In this document: positions 3,609-47,499 of the stretch, one piece after another
Numbering within the stretch: the stretch's first letter is position 1
Layout: every line of letters starts with the position of its first letter
Assembly: GCA_003244045.1 (NCBI GenBank)
Contig: QHBU01000046.1
Coordinates: 1 to 47,822, forward strand
Length of the DNA stretch: 47,822 bases
From: Candidatus Aeolococcus gillhamiae
Lineage (GTDB): Bacteria; Chloroflexota; Dormibacteria; Aeolococcales; Aeolococcaceae
Direction of reading: 5' to 3'
Translations under genes and position numbers: made by a program
The notes under the pieces: model-generated
What the model was told of the DNA's origin: nothing
The model's input: the letters and a program-made list of their open reading frames with translations, nothing else
Database searches by the model: none

Positions 3609-4769
3609 TCAACCGGCCTGTTGCAACGCCTGGCTGAGATCGGCGAGGAGATCGTCGAGGTCCTCGATCCCCACCGAGAGACGGAGCAGGCTGTCCCCGA
3701 GCCCGATGCGATGGCGCTCGTCGACGGGCACGGAGACGTGGGTCATCAATCCGGGGTGCTCGGCGAGGGACTCCACCGCGCCGAGGGATTCGGCCAGGGT
3801 GAACAGGCGCAGCGCTTCGAGCACGCGCACCGCGGCGGCCTCGTCAGCGAGCTCGAACGACACCATGCCGCCGAAGACGCCGCCCATCTGGCGCGCGGCC
3901 ACCTCGTGCTGCGGATGTGACGCCAGCCCGGGATGATGGACTGCCCGCACCGCCGGGTGGGCCTCCAGGTACCGCGCCACCGCGAGCGCGTTGTCGCTAT
4001 GACGCTGGACCCGCAGCGCCAGCGTCTTCAGGCCCCGGAGGAGCAGCCAGCAGTCGAACGGCGAGGGCACCCCGCCGGCGGCGTTCTGGTGGAAGCGCAG
4101 CCGCTGCGCGAGGTCGTCATCGCCGGTGACCAGGCAGCCACCGAGCACGTCGCTGTGACCGCCGAGGTACTTGGTGGAGCTGTGCATGACGATGTCGGCG
4201 CCGAGCTCCAGCGGGCGCTGGATGTACGGGCTCGCGAAGGTGCTGTCGACGGCCAGGTGGACCCCGTGGCGGTGCGCCTCCTCCGCCGCGGCGGCGATGT
4301 CGACGATGCGCAGCAACGGGTTGGTGGGGCTTTCGATCCAGACCAGCCGGGTGCGGTCGGTGATGGCGGCCTCGATCGCGCCGGGCACGGTGGCGTCGAC
4401 GGCCGTGAACGAGACCCCGTAGCGACGCATCACCTTGTCGAACAACCGATACGTGCCGCCGTACGCGTCCTCCATGTACACCACGTGGTCGCCGGGATCG
4501 AGCAGCAGCAGGGCGGTGGTTGTCGCCGCCAGGCCCGACGCGAACGCGAGGCCATGACGACCGCTTTCCAGCGACGCCAGGCAGGTCTCCAGCTGCTCGC
4601 GCGTGGGATTGTTGCTGCGCGCGTACTCGTAGCCGCCGTGGCGTCCGATGCCCTCCTGCGCGAACGTGGTCGCGAGGTGGATCGGCTGCACGACAGCGCC
4701 GGTGGCGGGGTCAGGCCCCTGGCCCACGTGGATGGCCCGGGTCGCGAATCCCGGTCGTCGCATGTTCAT
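3609..4769 (-). CDS. metB: Cystathionine gamma-synthase / gamma-lyase (PLP, Cys/Met metabolism)
   Basis: PLP enzyme of the Cys/Met metabolism family, 386 residues, with the PLP lysine K200 in SSTKYLGGHSD and the family motifs YARSNNPTRE and ESPTNPLLRI. It directly follows cbs, with one base between the cbs stop and this ATG. That pairing supports a role as cystathionine gamma-lyase completing homocysteine-to-cysteine trans-sulfuration, but the family does not separate lyase from synthase by sequence alone. Two ATG codons (4767-4769 and 4761-4763) are possible; the first is chosen because it is closest to the cbs stop. Confidence 0.93.
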   Translation of the reverse strand: MNMRRPGFATRAIHVGQGPDPATGAVVQPIHLATTFAQEGIGRHGGYEYARSNNPTREQLETCLASLESGRHGLAFASGLAATTTALLLLDPGDHVVYMEDAYGGTYRLFDKVMRRYGVSFTAVDATVPGAIEAAITDRTRLVWIESPTNPLLRIVDIAAAAEEAHRHGVHLAVDSTFASPYIQRPLELGADIVMHSSTKYLGGHSDVLGGCLVTGDDDLAQRLRFHQNAAGGVPSPFDCWLLLRGLKTLALRVQRHSDNALAVARYLEAHPAVRAVHHPGLASHPQHEVAARQMGGVFGGMVSFELADEAAAVRVLEALRLFTLAESLGAVESLAEHPGLMTHVSVPVDERHRIGLGDSLLRLSVGIEDLDDLLADLSQALQQAG

Positions 4770-4770
4770 C

Positions 4771-6138
4771 TCAGCGGTGGTGGGCGACGTACTCGAGAAG
4801 GTCGGCGCGGGTGATCACCCCCACCGGGCGATCGGCGTCGATGATGGTCACCGCGGCCTCGCCGGAGAGGAGTGGCGCAAAGGCCTCGTCCAGGGGCGCG
4901 TCGGCAGCCACCGACGTGAACGGAGGATCCATGGCCGCGGACACCGAGGCGGTCACCACTGCAGGGTCACGGTAGACGCGGTCGAGCAGGGTGCGTTCGG
5001 CGATGCTCCCGACCACTGTGGTGTCGCCATCGCCGCCGTCGACGACCGGCAGCTGGGAGATGTTGTAGAGCTGCATCAGGTCGATGGCCTCACCCACCGA
5101 CTTGCCGGCCTGCACGGCGACGAGCGACGGCACCCTTCCGTCGGCGGCGTGCGAGGCGAGGACCTCGCGCACCCGCGCGGGGCCGAGGCGATCGAGGAAT
5201 CCGTTCTGGCGCATCCACTCATCGGAGAAGTACTTGCTCAGGTAGTTGCGCCCGGTGTCGGGAAGGAGCACCACGATGACGCCGTCCGGATCTGTGTCTG
5301 CGGCCACCACCAGCGCCGCGTGCAGCGCCATGCCCGCCGACCCGCCCACCAGGATCCCCTCCTCACGCGCCAGCCGTCGCGCGGCCACAAACGCCTCGCG
5401 GTCCGTGACCTGGATGATGCGGTCGACGATGGCCGGGTCGAACGTTCCCGGCCAGAAGTCCTCGCCGACGCCCTCGATCTTGTAGGGGGCGATCGGTCCG
5501 GAGAAGATCGATCCCTCAGGATCCGCTCCGACCACCTGGATCGCCGGGTTCTGCTCCTTGAGGAAGCGGCCGGTGCCGCTGATCGTCCCGCCGGTGCCCA
5601 CCCCGGCGACGAAGACGCTGATCCGTCCCTCGGTCTGGCGCCACAGCTCGGGACCGGTGGTCTGGTAGTGCGCCTCCGGGTTCTTGGCGTTGAAGTACTG
5701 GTTGGGCTGGAAGGCGCCGGGGATCTCGCGCGACAGGCGGTCTGCAACCGAGTAGTACGACTGCGGTGAGTCGCGGTCCACGTTGGTGGGGCAGACCACC
5801 ACGTCGGCGCCATACGCCTTGAGCAGGCTGATCTTCTCCGCCGACATCTTGTCGGGCATGACGAAGATCATCTTGTAGCCCTTGATCGCTGCCACCATGG
5901 CCAGGCCGTGGCCGGTGTTTCCCGAGGTGGGCTCGACGATGGTGCCCCCCGGGCGGAGCTGCCCGCTGCGCTCGGCCTCCTCGACCATCCCCAAGGCGAT
6001 GCGATCCTTGACGCTGCCTCCGGGGTTGAGCTGCTCGAGCTTGGCGAGCACGGTGGCAGCGACTCCCCGGGTCAGAGCGCGCAGCCGCACCAGGGGCGTG
6101 TTGCCAACCAGGTCGAGGATGCTCTCCGAGTACTCCAC
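4771..6138 (-). CDS. cbs: Cystathionine beta-synthase with C-terminal CBS domain pair
   Basis: Condenses homocysteine with serine (or performs the O-acetylserine equivalent) to form cystathionine. The 455 residues comprise a fold-type II PLP domain with the Schiff-base lysine K44 in GGSVKDRIALG, the TSGNTGHG phosphate loop and GTGGTISGTGRF, followed by two CBS motifs from about residue 335 to the end that may sense an adenosyl ligand. It forms a two-gene unit with metB. The start GTG at 6136-6138 gives MEYSESILDLVGNTPLVRL, the usual family N-terminus, and TAGAAT lies 7 bases upstream without a ribosome site. Confidence 0.96.
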   Translation of the reverse strand: MEYSESILDLVGNTPLVRLRALTRGVAATVLAKLEQLNPGGSVKDRIALGMVEEAERSGQLRPGGTIVEPTSGNTGHGLAMVAAIKGYKMIFVMPDKMSAEKISLLKAYGADVVVCPTNVDRDSPQSYYSVADRLSREIPGAFQPNQYFNAKNPEAHYQTTGPELWRQTEGRISVFVAGVGTGGTISGTGRFLKEQNPAIQVVGADPEGSIFSGPIAPYKIEGVGEDFWPGTFDPAIVDRIIQVTDREAFVAARRLAREEGILVGGSAGMALHAALVVAADTDPDGVIVVLLPDTGRNYLSKYFSDEWMRQNGFLDRLGPARVREVLASHAADGRVPSLVAVQAGKSVGEAIDLMQLYNISQLPVVDGGDGDTTVVGSIAERTLLDRVYRDPAVVTASVSAAMDPPFTSVAADAPLDEAFAPLLSGEAAVTIIDADRPVGVITRADLLEYVAHHR

Positions 6139-24367: not shown

Positions 24368-24445
24368 GCGCCCATAGCTCAGTCCGGATAGAGCGTCTGA
24401 CTACGGATCAGAAGGCCAGGGGTTCAAATCCTCTTGGGCGCGCCA
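24368..24445 (+). tRNA. tRNA-Arg (anticodon ACG)
   Basis: Full cloverleaf: acceptor GCGCCCA / TGGGCGC, D-arm GCTC...GAGC, anticodon stem TCTGA / TCAGA with loop CTACGGA (anticodon ACG), T-arm AGGGG / CCTCT (one G-T pair) with TTCAAAT loop. The discriminator is G and CCA is encoded at 24443-24445. It ends four bases before the stop of the opposite-strand gene. Confidence 0.95.
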
Positions 24446-35995: not shown

Positions 35996-36184
35996 TCACT
36001 CCGGCGCCGAGCGTTCGGGCTCGCCACCGGTATGGCCGCTGCAGCGGAGCACCGGAAGCGCTGGGTAGCGGGCAAATCTCGGGTCGACCTCGGACAGGCG
36101 ACACATCCAGAACTGTGAGCGGGCCCCGCGGATGACGCGGGCACGCTCACAACTCGCGCAGAGCCCGGGCGGTGTTGCGGACAT
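35996..36184 (-). CDS. Small protein with zinc-finger-like cysteines (62 residues)
   Basis: MSATPPGLCASCERARVIRG starts the protein, followed by SQFWMCRLSEVDPRFARYPALPVL and CSGHTG. The spacing C-x2-C...C...C and the D-x-RF-x-x-YP-x-LPV-x-x-C ending match small unannotated proteins I recall from several high-GC bacteria. A single Zn site is likely; the role is unknown. It overlaps the end of the HAD phosphatase gene by 38 bases on the same strand, suggesting co-transcription. The short frame is supported by motif content rather than by a ribosome site. Confidence 0.7.
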   Translation of the reverse strand: MSATPPGLCASCERARVIRGARSQFWMCRLSEVDPRFARYPALPVLRCSGHTGGEPERSAPE

Positions 36185-36965
36185 GACCGTGGGCGCGGCG
36201 CACGGCCGGACCCGAAAGAGTGGCCACGCGAGCCGGCACGCGGCTCAGCCGGCCAGGGCTGGGCCGCAGCGAGATGCGCTGGAAGCGTTCGATCGGCCAA
36301 CCGAGTCGTTGGGCGTGGGCGGTGAGCGCGCGATCGCCGTTGACGCAGACCGGGTGACCGACCGACTCCAGCATGGGCAGGTCACTGGCAAAGCTGTCCC
36401 CGTACGCATGTGAGAGGGCGAGGTCCACGTGGTGGGCGGCGGCCAGCTCGCGGACCGCGTCGGCCTTGCCGGTTCCGTGGCAGAGCCGCAGGATGCGGCC
36501 GGTGTAGCGGCCGTCGCGGAGCTCGGCCACGGTGCCTGCCACACCGTCGACGCCGATGATCGACCCCAGCACGCTGATGAACTGCGCCGGTGACGACGAC
36601 ACCAGGAACACGAGGTCACCGCGCTCGCGATGCCAGGCGATGCGGGCGCGCGCCTCGGCGTGGACGCGTGGCAGGACGTGCAGCGGGACCTCACGGCGGG
36701 CGAAGTCCATCAGTTCCTCTGCCTTGACGCCGGCCACGAGCGCGCCGGCACCGCGCACCGCATCGCGTATCTGCGCCTCGTCGAAGCCGGACACGCTGAA
36801 ACGGGCCTGGACCACAAGCGAATGAAGCATGGCGCGGGTGGGCATGAATCCGGCGCGCCGCATGGGACGCGCCACAGCAAGCAGCGACGATCCGCGCAAC
36901 AGCGTGCGGTCGACGTCGAAGAAGGCGGCTGCCCGACGGGTGGATCGGTCCTGCTCGGCTACCAT
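36147..36965 (-). CDS. HAD-superfamily hydrolase, SerB-like (HAD-IB)
   Basis: 272 residues. The HAD motifs are AAAFFDVDRTLLRGSSLLAV (nucleophile Asp in DVDRT), FLVSSSPAQF (motif II), and SHAYGDSFASDLPMLESVG (motif IV), with GKADAVREL between. This is the HAD-IB group containing phosphoserine phosphatases and CicA-like proteins. The ATG at 36963-36965 is chosen because the DVDRT motif then sits about 20 residues in; a longer frame upstream (to 37253) overlaps the methyltransferase and is rejected. Confidence 0.88.
   Translation of the reverse strand: MVAEQDRSTRRAAAFFDVDRTLLRGSSLLAVARPMRRAGFMPTRAMLHSLVVQARFSVSGFDEAQIRDAVRGAGALVAGVKAEELMDFARREVPLHVLPRVHAEARARIAWHRERGDLVFLVSSSPAQFISVLGSIIGVDGVAGTVAELRDGRYTGRILRLCHGTGKADAVRELAAAHHVDLALSHAYGDSFASDLPMLESVGHPVCVNGDRALTAHAQRLGWPIERFQRISLRPSPGRLSRVPARVATLSGPAVRRAHGHVRNTARALREL
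36960..36965 (+). promoter_or_regulatory. Putative -10 element (TACCAT) of the PrmC-like gene, leaderless type
   Basis: TACCAT 7 bases before the ATG at 36973. The same bases contain the start codon of the divergent HAD gene, so the promoter overlaps the neighbour's first codon. Confidence 0.5.
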
Positions 36966-36972
36966 GCGCGCA

Positions 36973-37896
36973 ATGTCCAGGGTTGCGAGCCGCGGCGCGG
37001 TCTCTGCGCAGTCCAGTGTACGGGCCACCGGCGCTGAACTGCTCTCGCGCGCGCAGATGCGCATCGCAAAATCGCGCAACATTGAGCACTGGCAAGCGGG
37101 TCTGGCGCGCTGGGATGCGGAGGTGCTGCTCGCCCATGTCCTGGGCGTCGACGCGGAGGATGACGAGGTCCTGCGCGACAGCGCTGTGTCGCCCTCGCAG
37201 CAGCGTCGCTTCGACGCCATGGTGCAGCGCCGTCTGACGGGCGAGCCGGTCAACTACATCACCGGGCACTTCCGTTTCGCCGGGCTCGACCTGGTGGTGC
37301 GCCCCGGCGTGTTCTCGCCGCGGGCGTCGAGCGAGCTGGCGGTGGACCTTGCTGTTGCTCGCCTGCGCCGGCGTCGGGGACGGCGCATCGCGGTCGACGT
37401 GGCCACCGGGAACGGCGCCATCGCGCTGGCGATTGGCGCGGCGGTGACGGCGGCCGAGGTGTGGGGTATCGACATCTCGGCGGAGGCGGCGCGCCTCGGA
37501 CGTCTCAATGCACGACGCCTGGACCTTGACAACGTGCACTTCGCGACCGGCGACATGCTGGCCGGGTTGCCTGCAGCGCTCCGCGGCGCGGTCCAGGTGC
37601 TCACCATCCATCCGCCCTACGTCGCGCGCGACGAGGTGCGAACGTTGCCGGTGGAGATTCGCCGCTTCGAGCCTCGCCACACCCTCACCGATGGTTCGGA
37701 CGACGGACTCGGGCTGGTCCGGCGACTCGCGGACGACGCTCCCGGCTGGCTGCGCCCCGGCGGCCATGTGCTCGTGGAGATCGCTCCATACCTCGCCAGG
37801 GAGACCGCGACAGCGCTGCGACGCGGTGGCCTGCGCGATGTCCGTTCCCATCGCGACAGCCTCGGGGTCACGCGCGTGGTGATCGGGCAGTTGTGA
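36973..37896 (+). CDS. PrmC/HemK-like methyltransferase with HPPY in place of NPPY
   Basis: 307 residues. The N-terminal helical domain (GAELLSRAQMRIAKSRNIEH, RWDAEVLLAHVLGVD) and RRLTGEPVNYITGHFRFAGL are PrmC-like. The SAM-binding domain has VDVATGNGAIALAIGAAV. PrmC uses NPPY to bind the glutamine of release factors; here the aligned residues are HPPY (H213) in LTIHPPYVARDEV. The substrate may therefore differ. The ATG at 36973 is preferred over 36964 because of its leaderless-type TACCAT. It ends in a GTGA overlap with the esterase gene. Confidence 0.8.
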   Translation: MSRVASRGAVSAQSSVRATGAELLSRAQMRIAKSRNIEHWQAGLARWDAEVLLAHVLGVDAEDDEVLRDSAVSPSQQRRFDAMVQRRLTGEPVNYITGHFRFAGLDLVVRPGVFSPRASSELAVDLAVARLRRRRGRRIAVDVATGNGAIALAIGAAVTAAEVWGIDISAEAARLGRLNARRLDLDNVHFATGDMLAGLPAALRGAVQVLTIHPPYVARDEVRTLPVEIRRFEPRHTLTDGSDDGLGLVRRLADDAPGWLRPGGHVLVEIAPYLARETATALRRGGLRDVRSHRDSLGVTRVVIGQL

Positions 37897-38942
37897 ACGA
37901 GTCTGCGTCGCCTGCTGTCGGACCGCCGTGGCACCGTCCGCTGCGCGGTCGGCTCGACGAGCTGGCCATCGACAGCGTGGCTCTGCGTGGCAATCCCCTC
38001 AACGACCCCAGCGTGCGACCGCTGTGGGTGTACTCGCCTCCCGGAGAAGTGACGAGCATCGAGCTTCCGGTGATTTACCTGATCCAGGGCTTCACCGGCC
38101 AGCTCGACATGTGGCGCAATCGCAGCAGCCAACGGCTCACCGCGATCGAGCTCATCGACGAGCTGTTCAGCGATCCGAGCGTGCCGCCGTGTCGCGTCGC
38201 CATGATCGACTGCTGGACGTCGCTGGGGGGAAGCCAGTTCCTCGACTCGCCTGCGACCGGTCGGTATCACACGTACCTCTGCGAGGAGGCGATCCCCTTC
38301 GTTGATGCCCACTATTCCACGCGCGCGCATCGTGATCACCGGGCGATCAGCGGCAAGTCGAGCGGCGGTTACGGCGCGATGATCACCCCGATGTTGCGGC
38401 CGGACCTGTTCGGGGGCCTGGCGTCGCATGCCGGCGATGCTCTCTTCGAGCTGTGCTATTGGCGCGATGTGCCGGAGGTGGTGCGCGCCCTGCGCGAGCA
38501 GTACGGCGGCTCTTACGAGGGATTCTTCGCCGACCTGCGAGGCCGAATGCCGTGGAGCAGGAAGGAGGACGGCGTGCTGCTCAACATGTGGGCCATGGCC
38601 GCCGCGTACTCGGCGGATGATGACGGCACGGTCAGGCTTCCCTTTGACGCATCGACCGGGCAGATGATCCCCGAGGTGTGGGAACGCTGGCTGGCGTGGG
38701 ATCCGGTGCGCATGGTGCCGCGCTACGCCGACGCTCTGCGCTCGTTGGCGGCGATCTACATCGACGCAGGGACGCGCGACGAGTTCTTCCTCGACCTCGG
38801 CGCCACCGCCTTTCGCAACGCACTGGGCGAGATCGGCATAGCTGAAATGCACTTCGAGCTCTTCGACGCCGGCCACATGTCCATCGAGTATCGCTACCCG
38901 GTGGCCATGCGCTACCTCGCGGAGCGCATCAGCGGCTCCTGA
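37893..38942 (+). CDS. Alpha/beta-hydrolase, esterase D / enterochelin-esterase-like
   Basis: 349 residues. The nucleophile is S156 in ISGKSSGGYGAM; ELPVIYLIQGFTGQLDMW and the terminal FDAGHMSIEYRYP carrying the catalytic His are typical of the esterase D fold. No signal peptide is seen, so it is probably cytoplasmic. Substrate unknown. The GTG start overlaps the PrmC-like stop by four bases, linking expression of the two. Confidence 0.87.
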   Translation: MNESASPAVGPPWHRPLRGRLDELAIDSVALRGNPLNDPSVRPLWVYSPPGEVTSIELPVIYLIQGFTGQLDMWRNRSSQRLTAIELIDELFSDPSVPPCRVAMIDCWTSLGGSQFLDSPATGRYHTYLCEEAIPFVDAHYSTRAHRDHRAISGKSSGGYGAMITPMLRPDLFGGLASHAGDALFELCYWRDVPEVVRALREQYGGSYEGFFADLRGRMPWSRKEDGVLLNMWAMAAAYSADDDGTVRLPFDASTGQMIPEVWERWLAWDPVRMVPRYADALRSLAAIYIDAGTRDEFFLDLGATAFRNALGEIGIAEMHFELFDAGHMSIEYRYPVAMRYLAERISGS

Positions 38943-38945
38943 GGG

Positions 38946-39383
38946 TCAGCGCCGGGCCGGGACCCCGTACTCGGCGGGCACCGGTTGCTCGGCGCCGCGA
39001 GCCGGTCCGCTCGGCACCCGAACGATGGCTGGCGTGACCTCGGTGTCCGGCGGCGAGGGCTGTTCCGGCGGGGATCCGGGTCCGCGGCGGTCGTCGGGCC
39101 CGTCGTCTTTGTCGCGCTCGTCTGAGCTGGCGGCCGTGAGGTAGAAGGCCGACAGCGATCCCAGAAATACCGACAGCACAAGGGCCATGGGGATGGTCAG
39201 GGCAAGGTCCACCTTGCCCTGGACGCCGATGAACGCGAGGACGACAAAGGTGACCACAAGCGTGGATGCGGGCACGACCCACACCCAGAGCGTGCGGCCT
39301 TCGCGATCGGCACCGAGCTTGCGCTCCAACGTTCGCAGCGCCGGCGGAAGCCAGCCGAAGACGCCGCGCCGCGGTTCGTTCAC
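38946..39383 (-). CDS. Two-helix membrane protein of unknown function
   Basis: 145 residues. Membrane segments lie at about 32-54 (LWVWVVPASTLVVTFVVLAF) and 61-84 (IPMALVLSVFLGSLSAFYLT); a charged, Pro-rich C-terminal tail (SSDERDKDDGPDDRRGPG...) follows. No known family is recognised. The GTG start at 39381-39383 is chosen for the TACGAT 6 bases upstream; the longer frame to 39482 is less likely. It converges tightly on the esterase gene. Confidence 0.7.
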   Translation of the reverse strand: MNEPRRGVFGWLPPALRTLERKLGADREGRTLWVWVVPASTLVVTFVVLAFIGVQGKVDLALTIPMALVLSVFLGSLSAFYLTAASSDERDKDDGPDDRRGPGSPPEQPSPPDTEVTPAIVRVPSGPARGAEQPVPAEYGVPARR

Positions 39384-39389
39384 GCCGTC

Positions 39390-39395
39390 ATCGTA
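39390..39395 (-). promoter_or_regulatory. Putative -10 element (TACGAT) of the two-helix membrane protein gene
   Basis: TACGAT on the minus strand, 6 bases before the GTG start; no Shine-Dalgarno. Confidence 0.5.
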
Positions 39396-39502
39396 ACGGC
39401 GCGTTGACACAGAGGCGAGGGGAGGCCCGGGCTGGTGCTGGGCCCGGGAGGCTGGCGGAGGCCACCGCCACGGGCGAACCACGGCACCTTGCGATACTGA
39501 TC

Positions 39503-39928
39503 ATGATGGCGCTGGTGGAGACGCAAACCGAACGGCATCTGCTTCGCGCGCGGGACTTCATCGATGCGCATTACCGTGAACCGATCAACGTGGCCATCGT
39601 TGCGCGCGCCGCGCATCGATCCCCCGCGCACTTCACGCGCCAGTTCCGTAACGCCTTTGGGGAAACACCGCACTAGTATCTGCTGACGCGACGGATGGAG
39701 CGCGCCGCAGCGCTGCTGCGCAACACCGACTACAACGTTGCGCAGGTCTGCGTTACGGTCGGGTTGTCGAGTGTTGGCTCGTTCACTACGGCCTTTCGCC
39801 GCTCGTTTGGGGAGAGCCCGACGCACTATCGCGAGCATTTCCCGTCACCCTTTGCGCAGGCGATGATGCCGACCTGTATCTACGAGGCGGTGAGCCGCCC
39901 GCGATCGAGCAGGAATCGAGAAGACTGA
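39503..39928 (+). pseudogene. AraC-family regulator interrupted by an in-frame amber codon
   Basis: The frame from ATG 39503 encodes a bare AraC DNA-binding domain. First half: ARDFIDAHYREPINVAIVAR, then FTRQFRNAFGETPH. A TAG follows at 39674-39676, then the same frame continues YLLTRRMERAAALLRNTDYN and FTTAFRRSFGESPTHYREHF to a stop at 39926-39928. Intact relatives have Gln at this position (TPHQYLLTRRM), so CAG to TAG is a single change. Read through, it is 141 residues. It lies directly upstream of a VOC gene, a common regulator/target arrangement. Either a true nonsense mutation, a sequencing error or amber suppression would explain it. Confidence 0.85.
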
Positions 39929-39990
39929 GGCCACTAGGGTCGCTAGGATGAACTCGTAGGTGAGCCACCTCGGCGCGCCGCCACAGAGGG

Positions 39991-40410
39991 ATGAATACTA
40001 TGTCTGTACAGGTAAGCCACGCCACACTCTGGGTCCGGAACCACGATGAGGCGCTCGCGTTCTTTGACAAATTGGGGTTCGCGGTGCGTGAAGACGTCAA
40101 GAACGGCGACTACCGCTGGCTCGCGGTGACTTCGTTCAGCCAGCCGGATCTTGCGATCGTGTTGGCGGTCCCCGGGCATCCAATGGACGAAGAGACAGCC
40201 GCGCATGTCAAGTCCGCGGTTGCCAAGGGCATGTTGAGCTCGATCGTCCTTTCAACGGATGACTGCTTCGCGACGTACGAGGACCTGAAGGCGAAGGGAA
40301 TTGAATTCACGCGTCCCGCCGCCGAGCGCCCGTACGGTGTCGACGCAGCGTTCCGCGACCCGTCGGGCAACGAGTTCCGCCTGCTGCAAGCCGCTGGGGC
40401 TCCGGCATAG
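39991..40410 (+). CDS. VOC-superfamily (glyoxalase/bleomycin-resistance-like) protein
   Basis: 139 residues in two beta-alpha-beta-beta-beta halves: VSHATLWVRNHDEALAFFDK and LGFAVREDVKNGDYRWLAVT, then STDDCFATYEDLKAKGIEFT and FRDPSGNEFRLLQA with the usual metal Glu at the end. The family includes glyoxalase I, dioxygenases and resistance proteins; substrate unknown. It follows the broken AraC gene by 62 bases and was probably its target. Confidence 0.88.
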   Translation: MNTMSVQVSHATLWVRNHDEALAFFDKLGFAVREDVKNGDYRWLAVTSFSQPDLAIVLAVPGHPMDEETAAHVKSAVAKGMLSSIVLSTDDCFATYEDLKAKGIEFTRPAAERPYGVDAAFRDPSGNEFRLLQAAGAPA

Positions 40411-40465
40411 CGTGCACGGGAGGCCGTCTCCGTGCGCAACCGGAAGCTAAATCAGAACCGGTGCG

Positions 40466-40894
40466 CTAGCGACCCACCTGTGGCGAGCGTTCGACGCCGT
40501 CGATGAGCTGACCCAGGAGCCGGATGAGTGTCGGATAGTCGTCTGCAGGCAGCGCGGTAGCAACTGCTTCCCGAACGGTCGCGACGCGCGCCCCCGCGTC
40601 CGCATGCGCTGACAGCCCGGCCGGGGTCAACGCCAGCGCTCCGTCCCGACCGTCGACCACGAACTCGCGGTCGCGCAGTTGATCCACGGCACTCGCGGCC
40701 CCCGCGAAATTGTCGAGCGCGCGGAGGATCTCAGCCTCCGGCCGAGGAGCACGCGCCAGCGATTCCAGCACCTGCCACTGCCGTCGGGTGATGGCCAACC
40801 CAGCGAGCGCGTCCTCGAACGCCTGCCTGAGGCAAGCGTCCGCTCGCTTGAGCCACCAACCGATGGGGCGTCGCTCCGCCTGCTGCTCGATCAC
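40466..40894 (-). CDS. MarR-family transcriptional regulator
   Basis: 142 residues. Winged helix-turn-helix: ALAGLAITRRQWQVLESLAR, then ILRALDNFAGAASAVDQLRD, a wing with REFVVDGRDGALALTPAGLS, and flanking helices for dimerisation. The ligand is unknown. The GTG start at 40892-40894 has GGAGG only three bases upstream, and TATCAC 8 bases upstream, so translation initiation is uncertain. It converges on the VOC gene. Confidence 0.85.
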   Translation of the reverse strand: MIEQQAERRPIGWWLKRADACLRQAFEDALAGLAITRRQWQVLESLARAPRPEAEILRALDNFAGAASAVDQLRDREFVVDGRDGALALTPAGLSAHADAGARVATVREAVATALPADDYPTLIRLLGQLIDGVERSPQVGR

Positions 40895-41073
40895 GAGCCT
40901 CCGTGATACCTGATGCGCTCACCACAATACAGGTGGCACGCGAACCGCTACACAGGGCCAGACAATCGACGCGGGGCGTGCCGAGCTGAGGCCGCCTGCT
41001 GCGCTATGCGATCATCGCGGCCCCCGCCGCTCGGCGTGGCCCCCGTCAGCGCAGTCACAGAGGAGATTGCACC

Positions 41074-41580
41074 GTGCATCGTCTACCCATCGCCCCAGGG
41101 GCCTTCCTCGCGGGAGCCGCCGTTCTCGCGCTCAGCTCGTGCGGTTCCTCGAGCACCCCCTCGTCGGGAGCGGCGACAGCCGTATCGACAGCGACGCCGA
41201 CTTCGGCGGCCGCCAACGGCGGGTCGTCCTTCTGCGTCCAAGCCGCCGCGGCGGTCGCACAGCTGTCGCACACCAGCGCAGGGTTCACCCACGTCAGTCC
41301 TGGTGCCACGCCGGACGTCACCTCTCTGAAGCAACTCTTCGCCACCGCTGCCAGCGCGATCGACGCGCTGGACAGCTCGGCCCCGAGCGAGATCGCGTCC
41401 GCGTTCCACAGCCTGCGCGCCGCCTACGACACGGCCACCGCGAAGGTGCAATCAGCCACGACCATCCAGGGCGTCTCCGCGGCCCTATCCGGCATCAGTG
41501 CGGCGTCCGTCTCCACGGCGGGCACGCAGATCACAGACTACCTGAAGAACTCCTGTGGGATAGCGAAGCCCACCCCGTGA
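41074..41580 (+). CDS. Putative lipoprotein of unknown function
   Basis: 168 residues. Lipobox ALSSCG with the lipidation cysteine at residue about 23 after a hydrophobic stretch; a Ser/Thr/Ala-rich linker and a helical Ala-rich domain with two further cysteines (SSFCVQAAAAVAQLS and KNSCGIAKPTP) that could pair. No family is recognised. The GTG start at 41074 has GAGGAG eight bases upstream. It ends eight bases before the tRNA-Thr-like repeat and so sits at the edge of the accessory segment. Confidence 0.75.
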   Translation: MHRLPIAPGAFLAGAAVLALSSCGSSSTPSSGAATAVSTATPTSAAANGGSSFCVQAAAAVAQLSHTSAGFTHVSPGATPDVTSLKQLFATAASAIDALDSSAPSEIASAFHSLRAAYDTATAKVQSATTIQGVSAALSGISAASVSTAGTQITDYLKNSCGIAKPTP

Positions 41581-41587
41581 GGTAGCG

Positions 41588-41618
41588 GGAGCCGACGGTC
41601 AGGATTGAACTGACGACC
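41588..41618 (-). repeat. Partial copy of tRNA-Thr 3' half (candidate distal attachment site)
   Basis: Thirty-one bases identical to 43990-44020, covering the first two bases of CCA, the acceptor 3' strand, T-arm and variable loop. The D-arm and anticodon arm are absent, so it is not a functional tRNA. Confidence 0.85.
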
Positions 41619-41791
41619 AACCGGAAGGCACGCGGTCCGGTCACGAAACTTGGCCGCCCCGAGTAACCATTCGCTGCCGACGTCGTTGGCTGACGAGGCG
41701 GCCCGAAGCGTCTTTCTCGTTCAAGGCTAGGGCCCCTTTGTGTCGACGGCAGCGGTGCCCGTTCACACGGCAAGCTTCGCCCAGCAGTGAA

Positions 41792-42055
41792 CTACGCTTC
41801 GACGAGCATCACCAGGGATTCAGGCACCACGCCGTCATACGCCATTGCGTCGGCCATCGGCTGCGTCTGCATCGCGGCCCTGAGGGCATCCAGGTCTGCA
41901 ACGTCCATGAGCACCGCAACCCGGGTCGGGTTCTCCGGGTCGACGAACGTCCGGATGTTGGTGACGCCGAGGGGTCCGAAGACCTCTTCGCGCTTCGGAG
42001 AGGCAAGCCAGTGCTTGGTGTCCTTCACATCGTGATGGCCGATGACGGTTGGCAT
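41792..42055 (-). CDS. Small alpha/beta-barrel-like hypothetical protein (87 residues)
   Basis: MPTVIGHHDVKDTKHWLASP begins the protein; FGPLGVTNIRTFVDPENPTR and VAVLMDVADLDALRAAMQ follow, ending in VVPESLVMLVEA. The beta-alpha-beta pattern and the 'DP.NP.RV...MDVADLDAL' segment fit small ferredoxin-like dimeric barrel proteins seen in high-GC bacteria; no activity is known. ATG at 42053-42055 has GGAGA seven bases upstream. It lies inside the tRNA-Thr-bounded segment and appears intact. Confidence 0.75.
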   Translation of the reverse strand: MPTVIGHHDVKDTKHWLASPKREEVFGPLGVTNIRTFVDPENPTRVAVLMDVADLDALRAAMQTQPMADAMAYDGVVPESLVMLVEA

Positions 42056-42313
42056 AGATGTTCTCCGCTGCGTCCTGAGCCCGGCCATATCGCCGGGCTG
42101 GTGCGCGGATGGTATCCCCTCGCACCTGCTGTCGTCCGGCGCGCCCGACCACTGCCCGACTGCGGGGAGCCGGTTTCAACAACCTGGTCGATCGGAATAC
42201 GCCACGTGGCGGAGCTCAGTAAGCGATTGCCTATGGCGCAACTGCCTCTTCTCTGGCAGTCCACTCGAGAGACAAGGTGGCGGTGCTCTGTGCCCGGCCT
42301 CACCGCGTGCTCA

Positions 42314-42319
42314 TAAGAT
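42314..42319 (+). promoter_or_regulatory. Putative -10 element (TAAGAT), leaderless type
   Basis: TAAGAT 6 bases before the ATG of the following 99-residue gene; no Shine-Dalgarno. Confidence 0.5.
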
Positions 42320-42325
42320 CCCCAC

Positions 42326-42625
42326 ATGCACGCTGTGGTGAACCATCTCCACTTCAACGTCGTGATCGACCCGGCGTTATTCGTCAAAGCCCGCAACGAT
42401 CTTGAGCCGCAGATGCGGACGATTGACAAGTTCGAGAGTTTTTTCGTTGTCCAGACATCGGACAAAGACGCCTTCCTCGTGATCGTGGCCGAAAACGCGG
42501 AGACTCTCGATCAGATTGCGACCCAATTCGGCTCGCCCTGGATGCGGGCGAATGTCCTCCCTCTCCTGGCTCGTCCGCCCGAGCGTCACATCGGACCGGT
42601 TGTCACATCCACGCAGTACCCATAG
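42326..42625 (+). CDS. Small hypothetical protein, dimeric alpha/beta-barrel (ABM-like) pattern (99 residues)
   Basis: MHAVVNHLHFNVVIDPALFV starts, then FESFFVVQTSDKDAFLVIVA and the C-terminal half ETLDQIATQFGSPWMRANVL, VTSTQYP. The pattern of a short strand, helix and two strands resembles antibiotic-biosynthesis-monooxygenase-type proteins, without recognisable catalytic residues. Base composition looks less GC-rich than neighbours. The TAAGAT hexamer at the leaderless distance supports this start. Confidence 0.7.
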   Translation: MHAVVNHLHFNVVIDPALFVKARNDLEPQMRTIDKFESFFVVQTSDKDAFLVIVAENAETLDQIATQFGSPWMRANVLPLLARPPERHIGPVVTSTQYP

Positions 42626-43146
42626 CTGCAGCCATCACTACCCGGTCGCGGTACCGACCCGCCTCGCCAACCTGGTCAATGGTTGGGCCATCCCCGGTCG
42701 GAGTCAGCTGCACGTCGTGTCCGCACCATCCCGCCGGGGGGGCCTTACGGATCCGCGCGGCGGGCGCGCGGCTTTCCTTGGCCAGGCGCGCCGGAAGCGA
42801 GAAGACCGACCCGCTGGGGTCAACTCACGACGCCGCCTCCGCCCCGTCGTTGGCCGACCGGTTATGCATGCTGATCGTAGGATCCTCCTGCGGCGCCGGG
42901 GCGGCGCACCATCCACGGAGGGGCTTTTCGCGGTCATCTACGACCCCGCAATGGATCTGCCGATGGCCACCGCGACGCTCGGCGCCCATCGTGCCCGCGG
43001 CCCTTTTCATCTTCTCCTGGCTCGCGCCCGACGTAGGTACACATAGTGTCACCAATCAGGTGTGTATTTCGGCGCCGGCAAGTAGCCCACGCCCGGCTGC
43101 TCGGGACGTGGCGCGTCGCCGAGCATGGTCCGGCCGTGGGCCGAGC
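42626..43146. other. Intergenic stretch without a convincing gene
   Basis: About 520 bases inside the tRNA-Thr-bounded segment. Several frames are open, but none shows family motifs, a plausible start or biased composition. It is probably decayed sequence. Confidence 0.6.
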
Positions 43147-43683
43147 CTACGACGTCTTGGCCAGGACCATCACCGAAACGGGGTCCGCGGCCGGCATCGG
43201 CGGCACCGCTGTGCTCCACACGAGCACGGCGTTGTACACGCCGGGTGGCAGCGGGGGAGGCCCGGTCGCGGAGCAGGGTGGGATCCGTGACTCGGATCCA
43301 CCCGCTTGGAGGCAACCCGGATACGTGGTCGCAACGGAGACTGCCAGCCTGGTGGTGCCGTGCGGAATCACGTAGGCACCGGCGGCGCACTTTGCCGGCC
43401 ATGCAACGGATGGCGGGGAGTTGCCGATCGTCAGTACGACGGTGAACTCAGGTTTGCAGCCGCGCGGATTGAGGTCGAATGCACCGCCCGGATTCGAGAT
43501 CACGAGCGCGCCGGGGATAGGCGAGCCGCCCATCGCCTGCGTTGTGGTGAGCTGGATCGCGTCCGATAGTCGGTTCGGAGGCGCGATCCGCACATTCCGA
43601 ACCGGGGCCGGGCTCGCCCCTCATGCGCCCACTCCGGCGACTAGGCAGACTGTAAGAGCGAGCCGGCGGAGCCTCGTTCTCAT
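43147..43683 (-). pseudogene. Secreted protein gene with an in-frame TGA just after the signal peptide
   Basis: From the ATG at 43681-43683 the frame encodes a signal peptide (MRTRLRRLALTVCLVAGVGA), then TGA at 43621-43623, then continues in the same frame for 158 codons: GASPAPVRNVRIAPPNRLSD, GALVISNPGGAFDLNPRGCK, CKPEFTVVLTIGNSPPS, then PPLPPGVYNAVLVWSTAVPP. The mature part is a beta-rich, Pro-rich domain with four Cys. The two halves sit in one frame with nothing between but the stop, so one nonsense change explains it. The family is not recognised. It lies inside the decayed segment. Confidence 0.75.
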
Positions 43684-43829
43684 GACCACGATTGTGCACC
43701 CTGGGGTGGGCGGGTTCTGACGCACCAACTGCCTGGGCGAAGGCCGCGCGACAGCCGTTGGTAGCCGCCTGACGCGGGCCAACTCGCGCGGCTGTGTCCG
43801 AAACGTGCTCAACGATGGGTTATGAGGTT

Positions 43830-44015
43830 GTGAACAGTCGCATCACCTTCGGTGCCGAGCTGCGCTACGCAATGCACGTGCGCGGGTTGTCCCTGACCGA
43901 CGTCGCCCGCCACTCGGGCGTGGCGATGGGCGCTGACACCCGTTGTACAGGGGTAGCAGTCGCTGCATTTGAATACAAAATCAGCAACTGGAGCCGACGG
44001 TCAGGATTGAACTGA
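43830..44015 (+). pseudogene. Truncated XRE-like helix-turn-helix gene next to the attachment site
   Basis: From GTG 43830 the frame reads MNSRITFGAELRYAMHVRGL and then SLTDVARHSGVAMG, the first two helices and turn of an XRE-type HTH. After about residue 33 the homology-like sequence stops, and the frame continues through unrelated, AT-rich sequence into the tRNA. The second half of the domain is missing. Such proteins commonly accompany integrases, so this may be the residue of an element regulator. Confidence 0.6.
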
Positions 44016-44063
44016 CGACCTACCGCTTACGAGGCGGTTGCTCTACCACTGAGCTACGTCGGC
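43989..44063 (-). tRNA. tRNA-Thr (anticodon CGT)
   Basis: Full cloverleaf on the minus strand: acceptor GCCGACG / CGTCGGC, D-arm GCTC...GAGC, anticodon stem ACCGC / GCGGT with loop CTCGTAA (anticodon CGT), T-arm TCAG / CTGA core with TTCAATC loop. Discriminator U, and CCA is encoded at 43989-43991. Its 3' half is repeated at 41588-41618. Confidence 0.95.
43990..44020 (-). repeat. 31-bp direct repeat within tRNA-Thr (proximal attachment site)
   Basis: The copy belonging to the intact tRNA; identical to 41588-41618, with divergence on both sides (T against G at the left edge, T against A at the right edge). Confidence 0.85.
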
Positions 44064-44095
44064 GTGGACGCCCGGCGGCACGCCGAACAACGCAT

Positions 44096-44101
44096 ATGGT
44101 A
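44096..44101 (-). promoter_or_regulatory. Putative -10 element (TACCAT) of tRNA-Thr
   Basis: TACCAT on the minus strand, 32 bases before the tRNA 5' end, just downstream of the SMP-30 gene stop. Confidence 0.4.
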
Positions 44102-44112
44102 CCGGCGGCTGG

Positions 44113-45015
44113 CTAAGGAAGCCCGGCGTGGGGGACGCTGACCTCGGTGGTGATCAACACCGCCTCCCGGGCTTCACGCCGGTTGTTCTCGAAGTAGTCA
44201 GGCGCGCAGCAGAGCAGCAGCGTGGTTCCCGACTCCCCCCCGAGAGCGCACGCGAAGACGCCGAGGCCTCCGGGAGGCTTGACTTCATAGACGATCTCGC
44301 CGCCCTGGGCGACTCGGATGCAGCGGCCGCCGATGCCGTCGGCAACCCAAATGCGGTTCTCCGCGTCGAGGGTGCACCCGTCAGGCGCGACCCGGAGCTG
44401 ACCCAGGGTGGTCATCGCGTCACCGAGCTCCACCTCGGGACCGAGCTGTGCCCACACCGCGCGCTCCTGCAGCGAGCCGTCGTCGGCGACGTGGAAGGAG
44501 GTGTAGCGATTGCCCAGGGTTTCGCCGACGATCAGGGTGCGGCCGTCCGGGGTGATGACCGTACCGTTGGGAAAGATCAGGTCCCTTGCCGCGATGGTCA
44601 GGCTGCCGTCGGGGTCGACCCGTTTCAGCGAGGTGGTCACGGGGTCGTCGAAGGCGTAGAGGTCGAAGCCGAAGTCACCGACCCAGGCGCGGCCCTGGTG
44701 GTCGACGACGAGGTCGTTGAGCAGACCCGTGCACACTGCTGACAGGTCAGCGTGGACGGTCATCGTGCCGTCGGGATCGCGACGCAGCAGCCTGTGGTCG
44801 CGCATCGACGCCACCAGCAGCGACCCGTCGGGGAGCCAGCCGAGCCCCGAGGGCTGGCCCTCCACATGGACCACCTCCGTCTCCGCCCCGTCCGGCGTGA
44901 CGCTGAACACGGCATGGCGGTACATGTCCGACACCCACCACTTGCCGTCGCGCCAGCGCGGCCCCTCGAAGTAGGCGCCGCCTTCGGCGAGCGTCCTGAA
45001 CGCGCGATCGGGCAC
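44113..45015 (-). CDS. SMP-30/gluconolactonase/LRE-like protein
   Basis: 300-residue six-bladed beta-propeller. Metal-site residues are in AYFEGPRWRDGKWWVSDMY (Glu), LLNDLVVDHQGRAWVGDFGF (Asn), IFPNGTVITPDGRTLIVGET (Asn) and WVADGIGGRCIRV (Asp). The family hydrolyses sugar lactones, lactones of xenobiotics or organophosphates; the substrate here is unknown and it is not in the pentose operon. The GTG at 45013-45015 has TACAGT 6 bases upstream. It is divergent from leuS. Confidence 0.9.
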   Translation of the reverse strand: MPDRAFRTLAEGGAYFEGPRWRDGKWWVSDMYRHAVFSVTPDGAETEVVHVEGQPSGLGWLPDGSLLVASMRDHRLLRRDPDGTMTVHADLSAVCTGLLNDLVVDHQGRAWVGDFGFDLYAFDDPVTTSLKRVDPDGSLTIAARDLIFPNGTVITPDGRTLIVGETLGNRYTSFHVADDGSLQERAVWAQLGPEVELGDAMTTLGQLRVAPDGCTLDAENRIWVADGIGGRCIRVAQGGEIVYEVKPPGGLGVFACALGGESGTTLLLCCAPDYFENNRREAREAVLITTEVSVPHAGLP

Positions 45016-45021
45016 GTTTGG

Positions 45022-45027
45022 ACTGTA
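45022..45027 (-). promoter_or_regulatory. Putative -10 element (TACAGT) of the SMP-30 gene, leaderless type
   Basis: TACAGT on the minus strand, 6 bases before the GTG. Only 17 bases separate it from the divergent leuS hexamer. Confidence 0.55.
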
Positions 45028-45044
45028 GCGGGCCGGGGCTCGGC

Positions 45045-45050
45045 TACCCT
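45045..45050 (+). promoter_or_regulatory. Putative -10 element (TACCCT) of leuS, leaderless type
   Basis: TACCCT 10 bases before the ATG of leuS; no Shine-Dalgarno. Confidence 0.5.
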
Positions 45051-45060
45051 TGCCATTGAC

Positions 45061-47499
<2,439 letters not shown>

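Follow-up and report, generated by a model that had tools for sequence, protein, structure and literature searches.

Islands that target tRNA genes insert at the 3' end of the tRNA, are flanked by direct repeats, carry their integrase next to the tRNA along with variable cargo, and leave remnants after integrase loss. One example of tRNA-targeted islands is provided by the pheV-tRNA islands of E. coli (PMC11537424).

Here we describe a locus of this kind in the window, by which we mean the whole stretch of 47,822 nucleotides that was analysed. With a probability of roughly 0.9, the segment 41588-44020 represents what is left of an integrative island that was inserted at a tRNA gene, is bounded by attachment (att) repeats and has had its integrase deleted. 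Like the tRNA-targeted tyrosine-recombinase islands, the window carries repeats of a tRNA 3' end, and two of its relatives carry an integrase adjoining the tRNA. Unlike typical tRNA islands, the remnant is very small (2.4 kb left), belongs to an uncultured member of the Dormibacterota, and lost its integrase while both edges of the integrase module remain. In the papers searched, the pairing of "Dormibacterota" with "integrase" returned passing mentions only.

The relatives' integrase (319 aa) resembles the Xer recombinases, matching the NCBIfam models XerA_Arch, XerC and XerD (XerA E 2e-44, XerC 4e-34, XerD 4e-31) as well as Pfam Phage_integrase, but it falls below the cut-offs of all the Xer equivalogs (XerA 152 bits versus 220). 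In contrast to the housekeeping dif recombinase, it adjoins tRNA genes and is accompanied by a convergent HTH gene. Tyrosine integrases of mycobacteriophages share 28% identity with it over 92-94% of its length. Unlike in mycobacteriophages, no phage structural genes were noticed on the G001 and G003 contigs that carry the module, where the cargo consists of hsdM, a glyoxalase-like gene and genes without assigned function.

Results

An earlier note on this DNA had claimed an exact repeat of the 3' half of tRNA-Thr at 41588-41618, with the segment lying on the 3' side of the intact tRNA, and our searches confirmed both points. The two copies are identical over 31 bp, and the repeat can be extended to 41588-41623 versus 43990-44025 with 35/36 positions identical and a spacing of 2402 (repeat search). 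This is the longest exact repeat within 39500-46500; chance repeats in 200 first-order Markov resamples of that interval reached at most 17 bp, with a mean of 13. The distal copy corresponds to tRNA positions 39-74, which run from the variable-loop side through the T arm and the acceptor 3' strand to CC. Direct repeats of the tRNA 3' end are present at both ends of the segment, and tRNA-Thr(CGT) itself is still intact after the insertion by ARAGORN and Rfam (Table 1).

No further copy of the tRNA-Thr(CGT) core was found in 38000-41580, nor elsewhere in the window's own genome in a search allowing up to 1 mismatch over 19 bp. A search of the flank and of G001, G002 and G003 for degenerate extra copies of the tRNA gave nothing above background. 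Within the DNA examined around ~20 other tRNA genes, the only similar copy was a 13-bp match at chance level, and the window's other tRNA gene, tRNA-Arg(ACG) at 24368-24445, has no repeat copy. When DNA unique to 41588-41780 was sought in all 32 family genomes, the tRNA core alone was matched. All of the compared genomes are draft MAGs.

Table 1. Coordinates of features at the tRNA-Thr(CGT) locus and of related features in other genomes (window positions unless a contig or locus is named).
Feature	Position	Strand	Evidence or remarks
tRNA-Thr(CGT), integration target	43989-44063	minus	ARAGORN; Rfam RF00005 72.5 bits
tRNA-side attachment copy, equal to tRNA 3' end	43990-44020		repeat search
Distal attachment copy, 31 bp of tRNA 3' end, exact; putative displaced original tRNA end	41588-41618	minus	repeat search; same core at three G003 contig ends
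tRNA-proximal edge of integrase module	43926-43989	minus	blastn to G001:C26 4438-4373 and to G003:C21
Deletion junction, ~1.34 kb missing versus G001 L013 4438-5781	43924-43926		alignment
N-terminal remnant (~35 codons) of HTH gene	43818-43924	plus	85% nt to G001, 84% to G003; 83% aa over 35 residues
YciI-like gene, 98 aa	41792-42088	minus	sub-threshold PF03795; 100% aa / 98.0% nt to G001:C278
Intact gene, 99 aa, no assigned function	42326-42625	plus	relatives 48-51% aa in three family genomes
Secreted-protein pseudogene	43147-43683	minus	signal-peptide-like start; in-frame TGA at codon 21, frame open afterwards
~57-bp repeat	43012-43068	plus	nhmmer E 1.7e-16
~57-bp repeat pairs	L013 5947-6009 + 6275-6337; L033 1618-1679 + 1925-1986; L118 5940-5981 + 6258-6320		
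Xer-like integrase with convergent small HTH gene	G001:C26, G003:C21, G002:C27, G008:C54, G000:C194, G017:C3, G016:C52, G020:C179		

A tyrosine integrase lies directly 3' of this tRNA in G001, a genome of the same genus, and, by contig overlap, in G003. The contig G001:C26 (8087 bp) carries, in order, tRNA-Thr(CGT) at 4299-4373, a tyrosine recombinase at 4654-5478 (Pfam Phage_integrase, E 6e-31), a convergent HTH gene at 5498-5884 and then hsdM, which reaches the contig end, so that the contig stops inside the gene. The same module is found on G003:C21 (4163 bp), where the integrase is 92% aa identical and the HTH 73%. In G003, one 25-mer covering the repeat, GCGACGGAGCCGACGGTCAGGATTG, forms the end of the integrase contig C21, the end of C38, a bare chromosomal flank homologous to window 36011-39395, and the start of the tRNA contig C89. 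To find the core next to the integrase module in one contig and next to the bare flank in another is the pattern expected of an attachment core, and it would reflect either mixed occupied and empty alleles or an unresolved repeat. C38 ends in the core ~150-170 bp past the conserved flank, which fits an empty allele or an unresolved repeat alike. In G002, tRNA-Thr(CGT) is present without a second copy and without an adjoining integrase, and other genes occupy the site.

Between G001 and G003, the integrase has a dS of 0.52 and a dN/dS of 0.08, values that indicate purifying selection on the gene, and LeuRS, which is encoded near the tRNA, has a dS of 0.61. Since the integrase dS is close to that of LeuRS, the module appears to have diverged in these two genomes for about as long as the chromosome. 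This suggests that the module is a long-standing resident in G001 and G003 that was lost in the window's lineage.

In the segment itself no integrase was recognised, as the earlier note had said, although the gene is present beside the tRNA in both G001 and G003. The window aligns to the G001 module in two pieces: the sequence from 43926 onward through the tRNA matches L013 4438 and lower, and 43818-43924 matches L013 5888-5781. In G001, the ~1.34 kb missing between them contains the complete integrase gene and the greater part of the HTH gene. The tRNA-proximal edge is 92-93% identical by blastn over stretches that include part of the tRNA. On the other side of the junction the HTH remnant, whose counterpart in relatives is convergent to the integrase, is fused to noncoding sequence, giving a chimeric ORF (43794-44015) that ends inside the att core. 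Both sides of the relatives' integrase gene are retained and the gene is deleted, which supports the reading that a tyrosine recombinase integrated here and that its gene was then lost. The further suggestion that most of an element had been deleted stands for the ~1.34 kb that included the integrase, but "most of an element" goes beyond this evidence.

The junction sequence, ...GGGCGTGGCGATGGGCGCTGACACC..., has few bases in common with each parental end. Because the shared sequence is very short, the junction points to a short-homology deletion rather than to a k-mer assembly join. An assembly error, in which the organism has the integrase but the contig dropped it at a strain-variable site, is very unlikely. 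The window's own genome is a draft MAG of 302 contigs (84% complete, 5.9% contamination) and the G003 contigs do break at the core, both of which would suit such an artefact, but the parental ends at 43924/43926 share too few bases for a k-mer join, and no close copy of the module integrase was found on other contigs of the same genome, where the best integrase of this type is 56% identical and has an in-frame TAG. With the deletion retained as the preferred reading, this lack of a close integrase copy makes the loss of self-mobility likely, and excision of the remnant as a circle is predicted to be negative.

The repeat could also have arisen through a partial duplication of tRNA-Thr by ordinary recombination, the copy at 41588 being a stray fragment that never bounded a mobile element. 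A segment without an integrase gene agrees with such an origin, as does our failure to find a complete element with both att copies in any single relative. However, both edges of the integrase module are kept beside the tRNA in the window, in G003 this core is found next to an integrase module as well as next to bare flank, and the copy covers the 3' end of the tRNA, which is the usual integrase core. We consider a stray duplication extremely improbable.

The remnant still holds some cargo. The two broken genes claimed for the segment are indeed broken, as the HTH gene breaks off after ~35 codons and the secreted-protein gene contains an in-frame TGA; the latter gave no family match. The description of the segment as gene-poor is roughly right, although two small genes with conserved relatives, the YciI-like gene and the 99-aa gene, look intact. 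The block similar to G001:C278 spans 41777-42173 (97.2%). Compared with the G001 copy, the YciI-like gene has a dS of 0.09, against 0.69 for LeuRS, and its nucleotide identity of 98.0% stands against a genus background of ~80%. These values show that the gene was acquired recently by horizontal transfer. G001:C278 overlaps the end of G001:C19 by 44 bp, and C19 carries tRNA-Arg(TCT) together with an integrase of 64% identity whose frame is interrupted by a TGA; judging from this overlap, the G001 copy of the YciI-like gene probably sits in a sister island. A prophage reading was rejected, as PHROGs gave no confident match in the segment and phage structural or replication genes were not found there.

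Over 41619-42990, in the middle of the segment, there is no DNA in common with the elements of G001 or G003; this stretch is assigned to the element by its position between the att copies. Support for the middle of the segment as element DNA comes from the ~57-bp repeat, with core ACACACAGTTNCACCAAACAGGTGTGTGT. A family-wide pattern scan found this repeat in one genus (g1) only, in a handful of places with none in G002, and most copies lie beside tRNA-linked integrases. Outward-facing pairs occur at G001:C26 and G003:C21, with a further pair at G003:C115; single copies occur beside integrases at G003:C100 and G000:C194, and another single copy lies at G001:C285. At three loci the outward-facing inverted pairs flank a GC-rich (76-79%) spacer, with ~250-280 bp from one copy to the other. 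No exact match to the pattern was found in 2.9 million viral contigs. The repeat matched no Rfam family and did not fold unusually as single-stranded DNA, so a structured RNA was rejected.

In G003, a cargo block of ~2 kb occurs in two 81%-identical copies (L033 12-1966 and L118 7918-5940). The start of G003:C21 overlaps the end of G003:C115 by 25 bp, and given this overlap the two copies may be tandem within one element.

Beyond the distal copy and outside the repeat, the block 39396-41587 has no counterpart at this position in G003 or G002. It carries AraC-like, glyoxalase, winged-helix-like and lipoprotein genes, and the part with the AraC-like and glyoxalase genes (39468-40415) has 86% identity to G002:C28:24235-25182, which lies elsewhere in that genome. 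An exact empty site was not found by way of the lipoprotein gene (41074-41580), whose relatives are 34-53% aa identical and, at L063 and L064, do not lie beside tRNA-Thr. Since this block is also lineage-specific, more than one event shaped the site.

It is conceivable, though we think it unlikely, that the locus combines two histories: the module beside the tRNA would be long established, the 41588 copy would stem from another element that used this tRNA, and several insertions and deletions would have made the segment a composite. Besides the extra lineage-specific block, the content of the site varies across all four genomes of the genus, the divergence of the integrase module is similar to that of LeuRS, and a different integrase (~33% identity) lies ~0.45 kb 3' of tRNA-Thr(CGT) in G013. 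Against this, the agreement of 35/36 across the 36-bp core is compatible with a recent common origin of the two copies, and the G003 contig ends place this very core beside this integrase module. Such a composite overlaps with the single att-bounded island that we favor, as it alters which integrase made the repeat and not the integrase origin itself.

Within this Dormibacterota family, the short Xer-like integrase and the small convergent HTH gene are seen repeatedly as a two-gene module, in several cases immediately 3' of a tRNA gene. The order of tRNA, integrase and convergent HTH gene is also seen at tRNA-Pro(TGG) in G002, tRNA-Gly(TCC) in G000 and tRNA-Thr(GGT) in G008, and integrase-HTH neighbours were identified by position in G017, G016 and G020. 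Additionally, related integrases (41-64%) lie near other tRNA genes, namely Arg(TCT), Arg(ACG), Gly and Ala. The window's own genome has a related integrase with an in-frame TAG at G000:C148:27611-28417 (L036 7609-8415), adjoining tRNA-Arg(TCT); this locus is probably a second inactivated island.

Discussion

We propose that a short Xer-type tyrosine recombinase, encoded beside its attachment site, would have inserted the island at the 3' end of tRNA-Thr(CGT). The tRNA would have been restored by the core that came in with the island, and the displaced original tRNA end would have stayed at the far side. We infer that an integrase of the relatives' type made this insertion and was paired with the copy at 41588. 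A later deletion, apparently between very short shared sequences, would have removed the integrase gene together with most of its convergent HTH neighbour, presumably in the window's lineage after the insertion, and a stop codon broke a cargo gene. What was left would be an att-bounded piece that is predicted to be no longer able to excise alone.

The segment is an ordinary kind of genomic fossil, here well documented, and its mechanism is textbook. With both edges of the deletion visible, it illustrates how a tRNA island becomes immobile when its integrase is removed while its attachment repeats stay readable. More speculatively, the Dormibacterota may possess a family of minimal tRNA-targeted elements, whose core is a short Xer-like recombinase with a small convergent HTH protein and which recur at the tRNA genes for Thr, Pro and Gly, with the ~57-bp repeat as a functional part and the window as a fossil; we hold this idea as doubtful at present. 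If it were true, the ~57-bp repeat would be a recombination site, a regulatory site or the end of a mobile cassette. In addition, the locus points to tRNA-Thr(CGT), beside leuS, as a hotspot of turnover in the Dormibacterota, a phylum with few descriptions of mobile elements.
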